Source: a virus. Taken from it: a stretch of 32,376 nucleotides of DNA. Below the pieces are notes generated by a model, which saw nothing but the letters and a program-made list of their open reading frames with translations, did not search any database and was not told the DNA's origin. A program made the translations under genes and the position numbers. The stretch lies in the IMG/VR virus record IMGVR_UViG_3300042463_000209, positions 1-32,376 of that record; one strand, 5' to 3'. This document shows positions 1-32,376 of the stretch, piece after piece (position 1 is the stretch's first letter; each line of letters begins with the position of its first letter).

Positions 1-127
1 TGCATTCATTGTGCCACCACCTAATGTAGCTGCTGATGCTCCTACTGAAGAAGACGTTGCTACATCTGGCATTGTTGGTGCTGTGCCACCTTCATACTTT
101 GTGCTCAATACAGCGGCCAATTGTGCG
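1..127. repeat. Left copy of a 127-bp terminal direct repeat
   Basis: The first 127 bases are identical to the last 127 bases of the window (32250-32376). The repeat lies inside the tape measure gene, and that gene reads correctly through the joint. A length of exactly 127 is a common assembler k-mer, so this is most simply the overlap left when a circular or circularly permuted genome is written as a linear contig. It is probably not a biological terminal repeat. Confidence 0.93.
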
Positions 128-13599: not shown

Positions 13600-13810
13600 A
13601 GCTCACATTGTGTTCGTTCATAATAGATCTAAGCTCCTCACGTATCTCAGTGATGATATCGGTGACTTCTTCAGAATAGTTTCCGTGCTTTACTTCTGAC
13701 CTCATATACTGGTCAATCTGCCAGATAACTGCCTTGAATGCATTGCCATTCACAGCATCTTGGAATTCTTCTTGTTCCTCCGGTAGGTTAAAGGTGAGTG
13801 TTGCTGTCAT
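13592..13810 (-). CDS. Small conserved phage protein (TLTFNLPEEQEEF family)
   Basis: This 72-residue protein begins with TATLTFNLPEEQEEFQDAVNG and continues with an acidic helical body (QIDQYMRSEVKHG, EIREELRSIMNEHNV). The start TLTFNLPEEQEEF is a signature I recognise from a widespread small phage protein usually found next to replication genes. Its function is not known to me. It starts at an ATGA overlap with the PrimPol stop and is coupled to it. Confidence 0.7.
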   Translation of the reverse strand: MTATLTFNLPEEQEEFQDAVNGNAFKAVIWQIDQYMRSEVKHGNYSEEVTDIITEIREELRSIMNEHNVSYE

Positions 13811-16053
13811 TTCTCTGCTATTTCTTTGATGTAATTATTGATTGTCTGCCTTGATATACCCAACATATCAGCCATATGACTGCGGTTGAATTCCGGATGA
13901 GCTTTGTAAACTTCTTGCACCTGCTGCTTCTTGCTTTTGGTCTTATGAAGTGCTACAATTTTCTTCAATTCAAATGTCTCTGAAGACTTCATTTTGACTT
14001 TCTTAGCCATATTGATGAAGTACTTTGACAAGCGCTCAGCTTTCAGTACAGCATCCTTGGTGATAAAGTCTAATGGATACGGATCCTCACTGGTCATTGA
14101 GTCAAGTGTATTGAGCAGAAGTGCAAACCTTGGAATGTAGGACTTTTGCTTTGGCAGCATTGACTTCATATACTCATTCTCCATCTCTGAGTTCTGCATT
14201 GCAGTGATCTCATCAAAAATACGTTGCCATTCCTGCTTGGCTCCAGCGCTGAATGTGGCAATGATAGGAGTAATTTGATTGTCATTGTCATAGGTCACAA
14301 TTCTGCGCTTCACTTCCTGGTACATATTGATAGTGAAGTCTTCATACCACTGGAGCAGTTCGGCATCCATTTCATTGTCATTGTATGTCTCCACTTCTAG
14401 ATCAGGGAAGCAGGTCAAGATACGGTCAATGAAACCATTGTCTTTGTTTTCTTCAGTGAAGAATTGATTCAATATGCCTGGCTGAATACCTCCCAAGATT
14501 GGAATGACTGGTGACTCGACAAATGAGCTCTTTGATGTCTTTCTGTTCAGTGCCACACCTTTGTTGCTCCAAGATGATAACCAGAATTCAAGGTCAGAAC
14601 CTGCCCTGTACTTATTCATATCTTTCAGCCATCCTGCCAGCTCATCCTTGAATACTCCAACGGCATTCTTATTCTCCTCATGCAGCTCAACGAGTGCCTC
14701 AAGCGTGATGTCAGATGCAATAAACTGAGTCTTTGTAGGCTTGCGGAGTTGCTCCTCACCTTCACGTTCCTTCTTGTCCATCTCCATATAGGCACGGTAT
14801 GCATCCATACGTTTGATGTAGGTCTTTATTTCATTGTTATTTGCCTTCTGCAATGGGAAGATGATGTTATTGATATTCGGAGTTTTTCCCACTCCAGGCC
14901 TACCAACAATAGCCATCCACAGGATGCCGCTTTCCACCCACCCAGTCTTCACCTGTATCTTCACACTGTTGCCAATGATGATGCTCAGCATCCACATCAT
15001 TGAGCACCCCATATAGTCAAGTGATGCATTGAGTGTGCGGTGACATTCAAGCATATATTGTTGAATAGCTGTAGGAAAGATATCTAGTGGGAACACCAGT
15101 TCACTTTCATCAAGTGTGATGTCCGCTGGAGAATACTCCACTGCAGGCATCTGCTTGACTTGTCTTGATCCATACTGCTTGGCATACAGGTCACGTGATG
15201 CTGCCTTCATATCACCATTGTGATATTTGTACGCATAGATGGCGAATGGTGATAGAATTGTCTCAGCTGGATAGATTGTTCCTGTGGAGAATAGATACAG
15301 ATTGCCTGAGTCATTGAAGATGTAGCCACTATGTTCTGATGTACCACCGTTTCGCTTTACTACTTGGCGGTCCTTCAGTCTTCTCACAATGGTGAAGTCA
15401 TCTTGAATGAGATCCCAAACTGAATTGCGCTGATTGAAGTCAGTCCAAGGTGCAATACTTTGAGCAGGAATAGGCTCGTGCTGTGGCTCAGCTACAGGCT
15501 CCTTGTAGTCAAATAGCCTGGACACGTGCATCAGCATTTCACGGTCCTTCACTGATATCTCCTTAATGTCTGAGTATCCTAGTGCTGTGACCTTCTTCTC
15601 ATAGATGAATACATAGCCACCAATTCCCCTGGTCTCAATGATTGCCTCTGTAGATCCTTCAAGCTTGGCTAGTTTCTGATTGCCTTCAATGTGTTCACAC
15701 TTGTAAAGAATGTGGTAGCCGTTGTTGATTGTCTTGTAGATTACAAACTTCTCCTCAAAGTCAGCAATGGTATCATTCAAGAAGGTCAGGTATTCTTTCC
15801 AAAAGTCCTGCTGTGCTGCTAAAGTTGGCAATGTCTTGAGGTCAATGTCAATCACCTCAAGTCCACCATACCCTGTGCACAGTCCTTGACCTTTGGTAGT
15901 CTCCAGTTCATAGACTTTGGCAAATTCTTCTTTGCTCATTGCTTTAGTCTGGAATTCTTTCCACTTGATATTAGGCACCTTCTTGTCACCTATGGTGATG
16001 ATGCTATAGCCGTCATCAATTAGACGGTTGATTTTTGATAGTGGCAGCTTCAT
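13807..16053 (-). CDS. Primase-polymerase / DUF3987-type helicase fusion
   Basis: This 748-residue protein is the replication centre of the phage. The N-terminal archaeo-eukaryotic primase domain has GGLEVIDIDLK (63-73, D69 and D71 as metal ligands), NNGYHILYK (110-118, H114) and ETRGIGGYVFIY (140-151). A linker and small domain span 190-320. The helicase part has Walker A GRPGVGKT (384-391), KDELAGWL (about 460-467, Walker B-like D-E) and a DUF3987-style core. The last 35 residues are an HTH (HMADMLGISRQTINNYIKEI). It would unwind and prime at the origin-like region just upstream (16317-16547). No DNA polymerase gene is present, so host polymerase must be used. Confidence 0.87.
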   Translation of the reverse strand: MKLPLSKINRLIDDGYSIITIGDKKVPNIKWKEFQTKAMSKEEFAKVYELETTKGQGLCTGYGGLEVIDIDLKTLPTLAAQQDFWKEYLTFLNDTIADFEEKFVIYKTINNGYHILYKCEHIEGNQKLAKLEGSTEAIIETRGIGGYVFIYEKKVTALGYSDIKEISVKDREMLMHVSRLFDYKEPVAEPQHEPIPAQSIAPWTDFNQRNSVWDLIQDDFTIVRRLKDRQVVKRNGGTSEHSGYIFNDSGNLYLFSTGTIYPAETILSPFAIYAYKYHNGDMKAASRDLYAKQYGSRQVKQMPAVEYSPADITLDESELVFPLDIFPTAIQQYMLECHRTLNASLDYMGCSMMWMLSIIIGNSVKIQVKTGWVESGILWMAIVGRPGVGKTPNINNIIFPLQKANNNEIKTYIKRMDAYRAYMEMDKKEREGEEQLRKPTKTQFIASDITLEALVELHEENKNAVGVFKDELAGWLKDMNKYRAGSDLEFWLSSWSNKGVALNRKTSKSSFVESPVIPILGGIQPGILNQFFTEENKDNGFIDRILTCFPDLEVETYNDNEMDAELLQWYEDFTINMYQEVKRRIVTYDNDNQITPIIATFSAGAKQEWQRIFDEITAMQNSEMENEYMKSMLPKQKSYIPRFALLLNTLDSMTSEDPYPLDFITKDAVLKAERLSKYFINMAKKVKMKSSETFELKKIVALHKTKSKKQQVQEVYKAHPEFNRSHMADMLGISRQTINNYIKEIAEK

Positions 16054-16283
16054 ACTATGGCAGCGAATTCGTAGATGTAATTTGCTGCACCACTTTCATC
16101 CACCCTCATACCGGTGCATTTGAATAGTACTATACCTTCAGCCGTTTCAATCTCAATCTCAATGGCTGGATTGTCAGCTGTGTGGATCTCACGCTCCAAT
16201 GTAGCCAGGTGAGTGAATGGATACGTGACACCAGATGTCTCAAAATACTCACGTAGGTTTCTTACAATTAAATACCGTTTCAT
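16050..16283 (-). CDS. Small beta-rich protein upstream of PrimPol, unknown
   Basis: This 77-residue protein has no membrane segment. The first half is helical and basic (MKRYLIVRNLREYF), and the second half is a run of beta strands with acidic residues (IEIEIETAEGIVLFKCTG and ANYIYEFAAIV). It is not recognised. It is the first gene after the origin-like region, under a TACATTTG box 20 bases upstream, and it overlaps the PrimPol start with ATGA, so it is co-translated with the primase. Confidence 0.62.
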   Translation of the reverse strand: MKRYLIVRNLREYFETSGVTYPFTHLATLEREIHTADNPAIEIEIETAEGIVLFKCTGMRVDESGAANYIYEFAAIV

Positions 16284-16303: not shown

Positions 16304-16311
16304 CAAATGTA
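16304..16311 (-). promoter_or_regulatory. Bacteroidetes-type -7 box at the origin edge (TACATTTG)
   Basis: TACATTTG fits TAnnTTTG exactly and lies 20 bases before the ATG of the 77-residue gene, at the left edge of the iteron region. No clear TTTG stands 17-23 bases upstream. Several iterons lie immediately upstream, so an iteron-binding protein could block or help this promoter. Confidence 0.42.
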
Positions 16312-16316
16312 ATAAG

Positions 16317-16547
16317 ATTACACCGTAAATAATTTGTGTCAAAATTTTACACTGATTTTTACACTAATTTGACACTTTTTTTACACCTATTTTTGCTCTG
16401 CATTGCACTGATAGTCTAACTTACAGCGTTTTTGCTTTACACTTTTACACCAAAATGAAAAATTTTATTTTTTTTCAATCTGATTTTTTTTCAAAGTGTC
16501 ACTGTAAAGTGTAAAAAGTGTAAAATTTTGACACTTTTTTTACACCT
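16317..16547. other. Origin-like, iteron-rich intergenic region
   Basis: This is the largest intergenic gap of the genome (268 bases between genes) and by far the most AT-rich. TTTACAC occurs six times on the plus strand (16346, 16358, 16380, 16436, 16444, 16539) and twice as GTGTAAA (16509, 16518). TTTGACAC variants sit at 16368 and 16527, with the reverse form at 16336. A 17-base near-palindrome GTGTCAAAATTTTACAC (16336-16352) recurs inverted at 16518-16534. Between the two clusters lies a run of T and A tracts (16456-16492), a natural unwinding element. The longer form TTTTACACC is close to a DnaA box (TTATNCACA), and the gene for a DnaA domain IV-like protein is two genes upstream. PrimPol follows. 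Role as origin is an inference. Confidence 0.62.
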
Positions 16548-16551
16548 ATTG

Positions 16552-16809
16552 TCACTGGTAGAATTCAATCCACTGAATAATCTTAGCAGTGTAGCTATAT
16601 TCTTCAAGGATCACTAAGCGCTTCTGCTCATTCTTCTCAATTGGACAGTCAAAGTCATCCCTGAGCATAGCAATATCCTTCTCAATGGATGACCGGTGAT
16701 AGTCCATTCCTGTGATGTAGTTCACACGTGCAGTGATTTGTTCAATGCTGTGCGGTTTCATCTGTAGCATATACACTATGCAGCTCATTCGTCTCAGTTT
16801 CTCTCTCAT
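16552..16809 (-). CDS. Small winged-helix-like DNA-binding protein
   Basis: This 85-residue protein is basic at the N-terminus (MREKLRRM). Residues 10-55 read as helix (CIVYMLQMKPHSIEQITARV), turn and recognition helix (DYHRSSIEKDIAMLRDDF), then a beta wing (IEKNEQKRLVILEEY). This is the pattern of HTH_11/DeoR-like winged helices. It begins with ATGA at the end of the DnaA-like gene and ends at the edge of the iteron region. It could assist the DnaA-like protein at the origin or control the flanking promoter. The assignment comes from pattern reading only. Confidence 0.55.
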   Translation of the reverse strand: MREKLRRMSCIVYMLQMKPHSIEQITARVNYITGMDYHRSSIEKDIAMLRDDFDCPIEKNEQKRLVILEEYSYTAKIIQWIEFYQ

Positions 16810-17228
16810 AGTATCTCCATAAAGTGTTCACGCTTGATGATTCCTTTATTGTCCAGGAACCAATCAGGATCTGTTGAAGTGAATTGAAGCTCCAGTGTCA
16901 CAATTGGTCCTGCCATATGGCTCACTGACATATACATATTCTGTTCACTGAGCGCTGTGATGGAGAAGCGGTTAACTTCTTGCCACAGCTCACTGATGAT
17001 ACCCATATACAATGCATCACGTTGCTTCATAAACAGTTCGTGTTGATTAACACCATACAGTACAGTGCTGTGATTCATCCCAAACATATCACCTACCTGC
17101 TCAAATGTGAGTCCTTTGCGCATCTCACTGAAGATGTAGTATCTTTTGTACACTATGTCACGCTTTCTTGTTTTACGCTGCAATCCGTGTGCCTCAGCTA
17201 TCTTAATCAGTTCTTTAATTGTTGCCAT
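16806..17228 (-). CDS. DnaA domain IV-like DNA-binding protein
   Basis: This 140-residue protein reads like the DNA-binding end of DnaA alone, with no ATPase. Residues 29-60 are KRYYIFSEMRKGLTFEQVGDMFG, then MNHSTVLYGVNQH. In DnaA the matching stretch is the basic loop, then FGxRDHTTVxHA, the signature that reads the DnaA box. Here N-H-S-T-V occupies residues 52-56. A helix (DALYMGIISELWQEV) follows as in DnaA. The C-terminal 50 residues (beta-rich) are new. With a dozen DnaA-box-like repeats two genes downstream it is a good candidate initiator or loader that replaces or helps host DnaA. Confidence 0.72.
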   Translation of the reverse strand: MATIKELIKIAEAHGLQRKTRKRDIVYKRYYIFSEMRKGLTFEQVGDMFGMNHSTVLYGVNQHELFMKQRDALYMGIISELWQEVNRFSITALSEQNMYMSVSHMAGPIVTLELQFTSTDPDWFLDNKGIIKREHFMEIL

Positions 17229-17413
17229 AATACTTCAATTTTTTCATTCTTAAATTCATCAATGTGACACAATTGGTCTTCTTTGCCGTGGTAGTTAAAA
17301 TTGTCCTGGCGAAAGTAGCCATTGTCATCAATCTTTCCATAGCACCAAAAGCCACCTTCTGGCTCCACCTCATCAATCAGCCATATTCTAATCATTGTTC
17401 CTGGTCTCATCAC
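17207..17413 (-). CDS. Small soluble protein, unknown
   Basis: This 68-residue protein is rich in aromatic and acidic residues (VEPEGGFWCYGKIDDNGYF) and ends in a short helix (NEKIEVLWQQLKN). The first half looks like a small beta barrel (RPGTMIRIWLIDEV). It is linked by ATGA overlap to the gene upstream and overlaps the DnaA-like gene by 22 bases. Either of the first two methionines could start it. No family is recognised. Confidence 0.52.
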   Translation of the reverse strand: MMRPGTMIRIWLIDEVEPEGGFWCYGKIDDNGYFRQDNFNYHGKEDQLCHIDEFKNEKIEVLWQQLKN

Positions 17414-17658
17414 TCAATACGTTTTTGGTCATTGTCAATTGATTTGAACAGCTCAGATGCTGAGTCAAGTCTGCCAGTTGCTTTGATGAAGTCCACTTCA
17501 ATCTTTGCTGAGTTGATAATCACAGAACCAATGGCGCTGATTGCCTTTGCCTTGTCCACTTCTGCTTTGATTTGTTCTGGACTGAGTGTATCATCATCAA
17601 TCCTTTCCAGTGCTGCGAATAGGTGATCACGTAGATCACTGATTTTGTTCTTTGCCAT
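17410..17658 (-). CDS. Small conserved helical phage protein
   Basis: This 82-residue, all-helical protein starts MAKNKISDLRDHLFAALERI, followed by an acidic loop and SVIINSAKIEVDFIKATG. I recognise this start and the INSAKxEVDF pattern from small phage proteins that occur beside replication or nuclease genes. The function is unknown. It overlaps the HNH gene by 23 bases and the next gene by 4, so it belongs to the same operon. Confidence 0.65.
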   Translation of the reverse strand: MAKNKISDLRDHLFAALERIDDDTLSPEQIKAEVDKAKAISAIGSVIINSAKIEVDFIKATGRLDSASELFKSIDNDQKRIE

Positions 17659-31480: not shown

Positions 31481-32197
31481 ATGAAGTTCGTCTATCCATA
31501 CAAATACCGGTACAATTATTTTGAGATTGAGCACTCAGTGAGATGGCTGTACCTTGCCTATCCTGATGCTGAAGTCTATATCATTGGTGACAAGCCACAA
31601 ATATCTTCACCATTTATCCACATACCGTATGAGTCATATCTGCCGTATGCTGGATGTGATGTGACTGACAAAGTGATGACATTCTGCAAGATGATTGGTG
31701 ATGAGTTCATCTTGATGAATGATGACTTCTTCATCACTGAAAGATTCCCACTTCACCAGGTCATGTACTATGACTTTCTTAATGTCAATCCTTCACACTC
31801 CATCACCTATCAGCGTGCTTGTGAACACACCATTGACTGGCTCACTCATCACTACTGTGAAACCTACAGCTTTGAATGTCATCAGCCTGTGCACATCCAG
31901 TCAAGCAAGTTCATTGAGTTGTTTGAACACATCCACTACCAGGCACACAATCACCTGCTGAAGTCCATCTACTTCAATGTATGGCCACCAAGAAAGTATG
32001 AAGGTACAAATCTGAAGTTTGGCTATTCACTGACCAAGGCAAAAGAAGCACTGGAGAAGTACGGTGCTTTCAGCTGCTCTGAAGAATTTCTCACAGCTGA
32101 AAACAAGCGCTTCATCAGTACGTACTCAGGCTCTGCTGAGTTGCCACCTTCTGTTGGGTGCCAGTTATGTCACTCTCCAGTACCACCACTTGACTGA
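31481..32197 (+). CDS. Stealth/glycosyltransferase-like protein
   Basis: This 238-residue protein is the only plus-strand gene. The first 85 residues follow the nucleotide-sugar phosphotransferase (Stealth CR2) or GT-A plan: HSVRWLYLAYPDAEVYIIGDKP (18-39), then a HIPYESYLPYAG segment, then DEFILMNDDFFIT (74-86) with the metal-binding N-D-D. In the second half PVHIQSSKFIELF and VWPPRKYEGTN carry an H and basic residues as expected for CR3/CR4. It has no signal peptide or membrane helix. Enzymes of this kind transfer sugar phosphates onto surface glycans, so it might change host or phage surface sugars. The last 27 codons lie opposite the tape measure gene. Confidence 0.6.
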   Translation: MKFVYPYKYRYNYFEIEHSVRWLYLAYPDAEVYIIGDKPQISSPFIHIPYESYLPYAGCDVTDKVMTFCKMIGDEFILMNDDFFITERFPLHQVMYYDFLNVNPSHSITYQRACEHTIDWLTHHYCETYSFECHQPVHIQSSKFIELFEHIHYQAHNHLLKSIYFNVWPPRKYEGTNLKFGYSLTKAKEALEKYGAFSCSEEFLTAENKRFISTYSGSAELPPSVGCQLCHSPVPPLD

Positions 32198-32376
32198 TTG
32201 GTGGGCCGTTCTGTCCACCAGGAAGGAAGTCAGCCAATGAAGTCTGCTGTGCATTCATTGTGCCACCACCTAATGTAGCTGCTGATGCTCCTACTGAAGA
32301 AGACGTTGCTACATCTGGCATTGTTGGTGCTGTGCCACCTTCATACTTTGTGCTCAATACAGCGGCCAATTGTGCG
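32115..32376 (-). CDS. Tape measure protein, C-terminal end (residues about 752-837)
   Basis: This is the other end of the gene that leaves the left edge of the window. The frame is the same once the 127-base overlap is removed. The protein ends with a serine/threonine-rich tail and LSTY followed by TGA at 32115-32117. Its last 83 bases lie opposite the 3' end of the plus-strand gene 31481-32197, so the two genes converge with no space for a separate terminator. Bases 32250-32376 repeat the left end and should be counted once. Confidence 0.92.
   Translation of the reverse strand, partial: AQLAAVLSTKYEGGTAPTMPDVATSSSVGASAATLGGGTMNAQQTSLADFLPGGQNGPPISQVVVLESDITGTQQKVATQQSLSTY
32250..32376. repeat. 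Right copy of the 127-bp terminal direct repeat
   Basis: This is an exact copy of bases 1-127. Removing it leaves a circular molecule of 32,249 bp. Positions here equal position minus 32249 at the left end, which lets the two halves of the tape measure gene be joined. Confidence 0.93.

Follow-up and report, generated by a model that had tools for sequence, protein, structure and literature searches.

The analysed stretch of DNA, referred to here as the window, is a virus record of 32,376 bp with almost every gene on the minus strand. An exact 127-bp direct terminal repeat (window 1-127 = 32250-32376) indicates that the 32,376-bp genome is probably complete. No match was retrieved by a DNA-level search of GenBank phages. 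The middle of the window encodes a primase-helicase protein (PrimPol), two small ORFs and a DnaA-like protein, and between the small ORFs lies an AT-rich gap crowded with short repeats (iterons). The features at this locus are as follows.

13807-16053, minus strand: PrimPol (AEP) + DUF3987 MCM-like AAA+ motor + C-terminal helix-turn-helix (HTH), 748 aa, the proposed initiator
13813-13932, minus strand: C-terminal HTH, residues 708-747, the proposed iteron-reading domain (from HTH_11 and the helices of the model)
13822-13851, minus strand: residues 735-744, the part of the recognition helix that varies with the iteron word
16050-16283, minus strand: 77-aa ORF between the iterons and PrimPol, conserved in relatives L002, L003 and L007
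16284-16551, no strand: intergenic iteron region and candidate origin, 268 bp, 25.4% GC, at a position conserved in relatives
16304-16311, minus strand: promoter-like element TACATTTG, upstream of the 77-aa/PrimPol operon, a sequence match to TAnnTTTG
16336-16343, minus strand: variant iteron TTTGACAC, word match
16336-16353, no strand: left arm of an 18-nt exact inverted repeat, GTGTCAAAATTTTACACT
16346-16352, plus strand: iteron TTTACAC, exact word match (as are all TTTACAC entries below)
16358-16364, plus strand: iteron TTTACAC
16368-16375, plus strand: variant iteron TTTGACAC, word match
16380-16386, plus strand: iteron TTTACAC
16436-16442, plus strand: iteron TTTACAC
16444-16450, plus strand: iteron TTTACAC
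16452-16495, no strand: A/T-tract stretch separating the iteron groups, a candidate unwinding element suggested by sequence and by a similar AT-rich stretch in relatives
16509-16515, minus strand: iteron TTTACAC, inverted
16517-16534, no strand: right arm of the 18-nt exact inverted repeat, AGTGTAAAATTTTGACAC
16518-16524, minus strand: iteron TTTACAC, inverted
16527-16534, plus strand: variant iteron TTTGACAC, word match
16539-16545, plus strand: iteron TTTACAC
16552-16809, minus strand: 85-aa protein with no Pfam or PHROG match, described as winged-helix in the first-pass annotation
16806-17228, minus strand: 140-aa stand-alone DnaA domain IV protein, an ORF with FGMNHSTV and Pfam, profile and structure matches, presumed accessory

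TAnnTTTG is the -7 promoter element of Bacteroidota. We take TACATTTG to fit this element, and the same promoter element is present in relatives L002, L003, L007, L009, L010, L013 and L015. As PrimPol relatives are also found on Bacteroidota MAG contigs, the phage host is probably a member of the Bacteroidota. GC skew along the genome shows no turning point; since nearly all genes lie on one strand, it is uninformative for mapping the origin. The sole sizeable plus-strand gene candidate (31481-32197, 238 aa, beginning MKFVYPYKYRYNYFEIEHSVRWLYLAYPDAEVYIIGDKPQ) has no Pfam match. Further up the minus strand, an 82-aa protein (17410-17658) matches PHROG 2044, labelled 'RNA polymerase beta subunit' (E=7e-20), a label that looks doubtful for so small a protein.

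The gap holds exactly eight TTTACAC/GTGTAAA sites and three TTTGACAC sites, and its AT-richness and these counts are as the first-pass annotation had given them. In 2000 dinucleotide shuffles of the gap, TTTACAC occurred 0.29 times on average and three times at most, and no 7-mer exceeded four copies. Genome-wide there are 14 TTTACAC against 4.1 expected, eight of them within these 268 bp. Three other statements of that annotation were right in part. The 17-base near-palindrome reported twice in inverted form is indeed an inverted pair, but one of 18 nt and exact. The gap does lie between the DnaA-like gene and PrimPol, but adjoins neither directly: the 85-aa ORF separates it from the former and the 77-aa ORF from the latter. 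Likewise, TTTTACACC is two mismatches away from the DnaA box TTATNCACA, as claimed, but DnaA-box-like sites (≤1 mismatch) show no enrichment (35 vs 51 expected). A search by alignment for a conserved element at the centre, with iteron groups on either side, gave no clear common motif; an Rfam search of the window and six loci returned no match.

In the 748-aa protein, DUF3987 (PF13148) is recognized at 189.9 bits (cut-off 27), while Prim-Pol (PF09250) scores 21.5 bits against a cut-off of 22.8, which is exceeded in L098 and L057, and HTH_11 (residues 711-746) scores 23.6 bits, just below its cut-off of 25. The AF2 model has a mean pLDDT of 85 and ends in three helices (708-718, 724-731 and 735-747) with pLDDT of about 77-87. 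Foldseek paired the N-terminus best with the pRN1 PrimPol 1rni (E=8e-7) and further parts with MCM motors; sequence search found no solved structure for PrimPol, and among GenBank phages it gave remote partial matches only. The protein is thus modelled as a pRN1-like PrimPol followed by an MCM-like motor and a C-terminal HTH.

The 140-aa protein is DnaA domain IV by fold and signature, and the description of it as that domain alone, without an ATPase, proved accurate. Bac_DnaA_C scores 28.9 bits with the single protein, just below the 31.5 cut-off, and 31.9 bits, above it, in a six-frame search. A profile of its relatives matches DnaA domain IV 1J1V (E=1.4e-4) and 3PVP. The three best PDB matches of its AF2 model (mean pLDDT 80, >90 across most of the helical core) are DNA-binding domains of DnaA, two chains of 3PVP and 1J1V, with probability 1.00 and TM 0.65-0.71 by target, although with weak E-values (0.011-0.12). 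Only HTH-type matches were obtained and no AAA+ ATPase domain was found. Compared with bacterial DnaA, the protein has the same domain IV fold and signature, lacks the AAA+ domain, carries an extra C-terminal part and, on the comparisons below, has partner DNA other than the neighbouring iterons. A protein search of GenBank phages gave no match; in viral contigs, a single-sequence search gave none and an alignment-based search recovered relatives. In six of 17 PrimPol phage records (L044, L060, L063, L076, L082 and L083), genes for a stand-alone DnaA domain IV are also found at other places.

Repeat clusters were counted within 1.2 kb on the upstream side of PrimPol and within 0.6 kb on its downstream side. 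By this definition PrimPol is accompanied by a cluster in 140 of 147 distinct loci (first sets, 79/82; second set, 61/65); none was found beside PrimPol in L024, L048 and L075. The densest repeat window of the locus adjoins PrimPol in 75 of the 82 distinct loci, and six or more copies occur beside PrimPol in 68/82 loci vs 3/82 elsewhere. As judged from sequence, the repeats are linked to the PrimPol-DUF3987 helicase beyond chance. The pairing of DnaA-like protein and iterons that was expected in related phages did not hold: 54 of the 79 iteron-bearing PrimPol loci have no DnaA-like hit. Because loci can be partial, the absence is firmer in long records, and iteron-bearing ones without a Bac_DnaA_C match include L026, L033, L038, L051, L061 and L064, the completeness of none being proven.

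The word that is repeated differs between relatives, and it follows the PrimPol recognition helix. With iteron motifs derived without reference to protein sequence, helix and iteron distances were correlated after controlling for the rest of the protein (partial Mantel r=0.505; 44 loci; 0/5000 permutations). The best of 739 ten-residue windows over the 748-residue protein starts at residue 735, and the best outside the C-terminus reaches 0.30. With the second set added, r was 0.396 (74 loci) and the peak fell again at 735. When single columns were ranked, 740 came first, 473 second and 735 third of all columns. The second-ranking residue, A473, lies in the motor domain (window 14635-14637, minus strand) and is unexplained by the recognition-helix model.

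In residue and word classes that were defined after seeing the data, N at 740 goes with AAAG-type words (27/31), K with GGTT-type (26/27) and R with AACAT-type (10/10), while R at 735 goes with TGT/ACA (60/60) and L, V or I with TTTAAA (8/8). At least 19 changes at residue 740 are placed on the tree. For this residue, phylogenetically independent pairs were concordant for R/N (6/6, p=0.031), R/K (5/5) and K/N (3/3 plus one tie), as were those for 735 (4/4), with none discordant in either column and only one single contrast reaching 0.05. The first set was also used to predict iterons in the second, which had been fetched with an alignment containing first-set members, so that selection was not fully independent; with loci of >75% core identity to a training locus left out, the nearest helix gave a mean similarity of 0.625 vs 0.539 for the nearest protein (p=3e-4; random 0.541). 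Loci L198, L212 and L214 fitted poorly. Across these comparisons the iteron word covaries with the PrimPol recognition helix and not with the DnaA-like protein, and the predicted binding specificity of the tail for the iterons is well supported.

We therefore consider it highly probable that the 268-bp region is a replication origin read by the C-terminal HTH of PrimPol-DUF3987, the DnaA-domain-IV protein being an accessory with another target. Several copies of PrimPol-DUF3987 would bind the GTGTAAA/TTTACAC iterons through their last helix; the MCM-like AAA+ motor would then load on the AT-rich DNA and open it, and the N-terminal primase-polymerase would make the first primers. The DnaA-domain-IV protein would assist from a target other than the iterons. 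We infer binding, self-loading, unwinding, priming and origin function, with loading, unwinding, priming and origin function suggested by domain content and by analogy with P4 alpha, pRN1 ORF904 and SaPI Rep/Cch2. The small replicon proposed in the first-pass annotation thus survives as the phage's own initiator and iteron module beside a primase gene, but without DNA recognition derived from DnaA.

Both proteins might act at this locus, an addition to the preferred explanation that we hold tentatively and regard as rather unlikely: the iterons would be read by PrimPol, and the DnaA-domain-IV protein would recognise either host oriC or a different site at the locus, as an accessory loader or as a brake on host replication. 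The DnaA-type recognition motif, including its invariant histidine, is conserved in the DnaA-like proteins, and their gene is kept beside the origin through exchanges of the initiator, from which a role in replication or host takeover is probable. However, no conserved second motif was found, DnaA boxes are not enriched and many relatives lack the protein altogether.

Another alternative is that the iterons bound by the PrimPol tail are chiefly an operator, or a copy-number control, for the initiator operon, with replication starting elsewhere. The placement of the iterons just upstream of the TACATTTG promoter would suit such control, and they could serve autoregulation too. Nevertheless, in 28 of the 140 cluster-bearing loci the iterons lie downstream of PrimPol, which argues against a purely autoregulatory operator, and an origin is the simpler reading because the proposed reader is itself a primase and AAA+ motor. 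Control as the main function is improbable.

The interpretation given in the first-pass annotation was that the 140-residue protein is a captured DnaA-box reader that binds the TTTACAC iterons and starts replication. The identity as DnaA domain IV is genuine, and the gene, which points the same way as the operon, is 255 bp away from the iteron region and remains by iteron regions even where the type of initiator has changed. Comparison of close relatives speaks against this interpretation. Gene order is common to L002, L003, L007, L009, L011, L013 and L015, and in L007, L013 and L015 the iteron GTGTAAA is replaced by GTGGAAA. The DnaA-like proteins of L015 and L009 are identical at 139 of 140 positions, with GTGGAAA iterons in L015 vs GTGTAAA in L009, and L093, a second contig with the DnaA-like protein of L015, also has GTGGAAA. 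It is the PrimPol tails that differ: SRQTIKNW (L013/L015) or SRQTINQW (L007) with GTGGAAA, and SRQTINNY or SRQTIQNY in GTGTAAA phages. L099 and L101 share DnaA-like proteins (138/139 identical), and yet L099 combines a DUF3987 PrimPol with six GTGTGCA sites and L101 has a different initiator, six AATCGG and no GTGTGCA. The 791-aa protein of L100, near-identical to the L101 initiator, contains BT4734-like_N, PriCT_1 and DUF5906. Repeats differ likewise between L141 and L135 (DnaA-like proteins 125/127 identical) and between L161 and L162 (121/123).

These pairs indicate that the repeats follow the initiator and not the DnaA-like protein. Most relatives, and long records too, have iterons but lack the protein, and the iteron is two mismatches from an unenriched DnaA box. 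Together with the pairs, these observations make iteron reading by the DnaA-like protein very improbable; the L015/L009 and L099/L101 swaps and the replicate contigs exclude it as the reader. On this comparative evidence the iterons are almost certainly recognized by the PrimPol-helicase tail. Iteron binding by the 85-aa protein as a regulator is scarcely tenable and the protein is likewise excluded as reader: its small gene adjoins the gap and comparable proteins occur in several relatives, but the gene is absent across the whole L003 record, where degenerate iterons persist, and the protein is identical (84/84) in L099 and L101, whose repeats are wholly different.

Initiator-origin cassettes seem to have been exchanged at the location of the DnaA-like gene. 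Other initiators encoded beside near-identical DnaA-like genes (L100, L101, L113, L116, L140, L150, L162, L135 and L155) are BT4734-like_N/PriCT_1/DUF5906 proteins or a 488-aa protein with no Pfam match, and the repeats found with them differ (AAATCGG, GTGACAA, AGGGCACA and AGTAAAAG).

A separate feature of the relatives, absent from the window's own leader, is a conserved H-type pseudoknot that follows the TAnnTTTG promoter and precedes the start codon of the initiator gene (for example L099:7898-7994, L105:4509-4607, L098:3358-3456, L100:7871-7979, L018 and L023). Its two interleaved helices (6 and 7 bp) in fixed geometry were found in 37 of 137 distinct leaders vs 1.0 expected from dinucleotide shuffles, a count that is not blind, as the geometry was set from observed examples. 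The first helix occurs in 24 different versions (ATGCAG/CTGCAT, ATGCCG/CGGCAT, ACGCAC/GTGCGT and others), and the pseudoknot persists while the type of initiator changes. In the loci tested, Rfam gave no match to it at gathering threshold. Other genes, too, seem to be preceded by similar elements.

Several known replication systems resemble parts of this arrangement. P4 alpha is primase and helicase in one, with a winged-helix domain at its C-terminus for binding the repeats of its own origin (summarised in PMC4234260), and the protein studied here is likewise predicted to combine primase, helicase and a C-terminal origin-repeat reader. However, P4 has a Toprim-type primase (PMC4234260), whereas that of the window is an AEP PrimPol and not of this type, with a DUF3987/MCM-like motor and a reader of about 40 residues of HTH. 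The pRN1 protein ORF904 (PrimPol-SF3 helicase-C-terminal winged helix) shares the N-terminal PrimPol fold and a C-terminal winged-helix DNA-binding domain; its motor is SF3 and its origin a 100-nt stem-loop instead of iterons (PMC4234260), in contrast to the iterons and MCM-like motor of the window. In SaPI Rep and SCCmec Cch2, a C-terminal domain reads short repeats just downstream of the helicase gene (PMC7581432). The C-terminal reader and the repeats adjoining the helicase gene are common to both cases, but Rep and Cch2 have no fused PrimPol and belong to other helicase families. In the PLE satellites of Vibrio, the origin and the DNA-binding domain of RepA_N covary and are exchanged together as a module (PMC8263062). 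There the initiator is RepA and not a PrimPol fusion, and covariation is known for two groups; here it spans over ten iteron words, with correspondence at the level of residues.

The domain order is shared with PrimQH-type AEPs carrying DUF3987 and a C-terminal winged helix (WH), and by this order the window's protein is PrimQH-like. Kazlauskas et al. (2018) described the PrimPol-DUF3987-WH architecture and suggested that the WH might recognise the origin, naming no DNA sites (PMC5862659); the word 'iteron' is absent from their text. What was a suggestion there is accompanied here by DNA sites and helix covariation, and the comparisons strongly support the published prediction of a possible origin-reading role for the WH tail (PMC5862659). 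Relative to the open-access literature searched, the iteron sites and the helix covariation are new, the mechanism having precedents in P4 alpha and SaPI Rep, and the covariation of domain and origin in PLE RepA_N.

More broadly, it is likely that one-protein replicons are numerous among Bacteroidota phages, that their origin word is set by helix residues 735, 736 and 740 at the end of the initiator, and that more than ten initiator-origin pairs have been swapped as cassettes while the DnaA-domain-IV protein stayed. For the locus itself, the analysis corrects a tempting misreading, since the DnaA-like protein is not what reads the DnaA-box-like repeats near its gene. It provides a probable origin and its reader for a phage group of which the phage collection searched contained no close cultured relative, and turns the published guess on the WH of PrimPol-DUF3987 into a residue-by-base hypothesis backed by about 140 loci. 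The differing initiator-origin pairs form a natural set for studying the evolution of replication specificity. If the proposed correspondence is true, origin specificity would be readable from sequence and origins would be predictable in uncultured phages.
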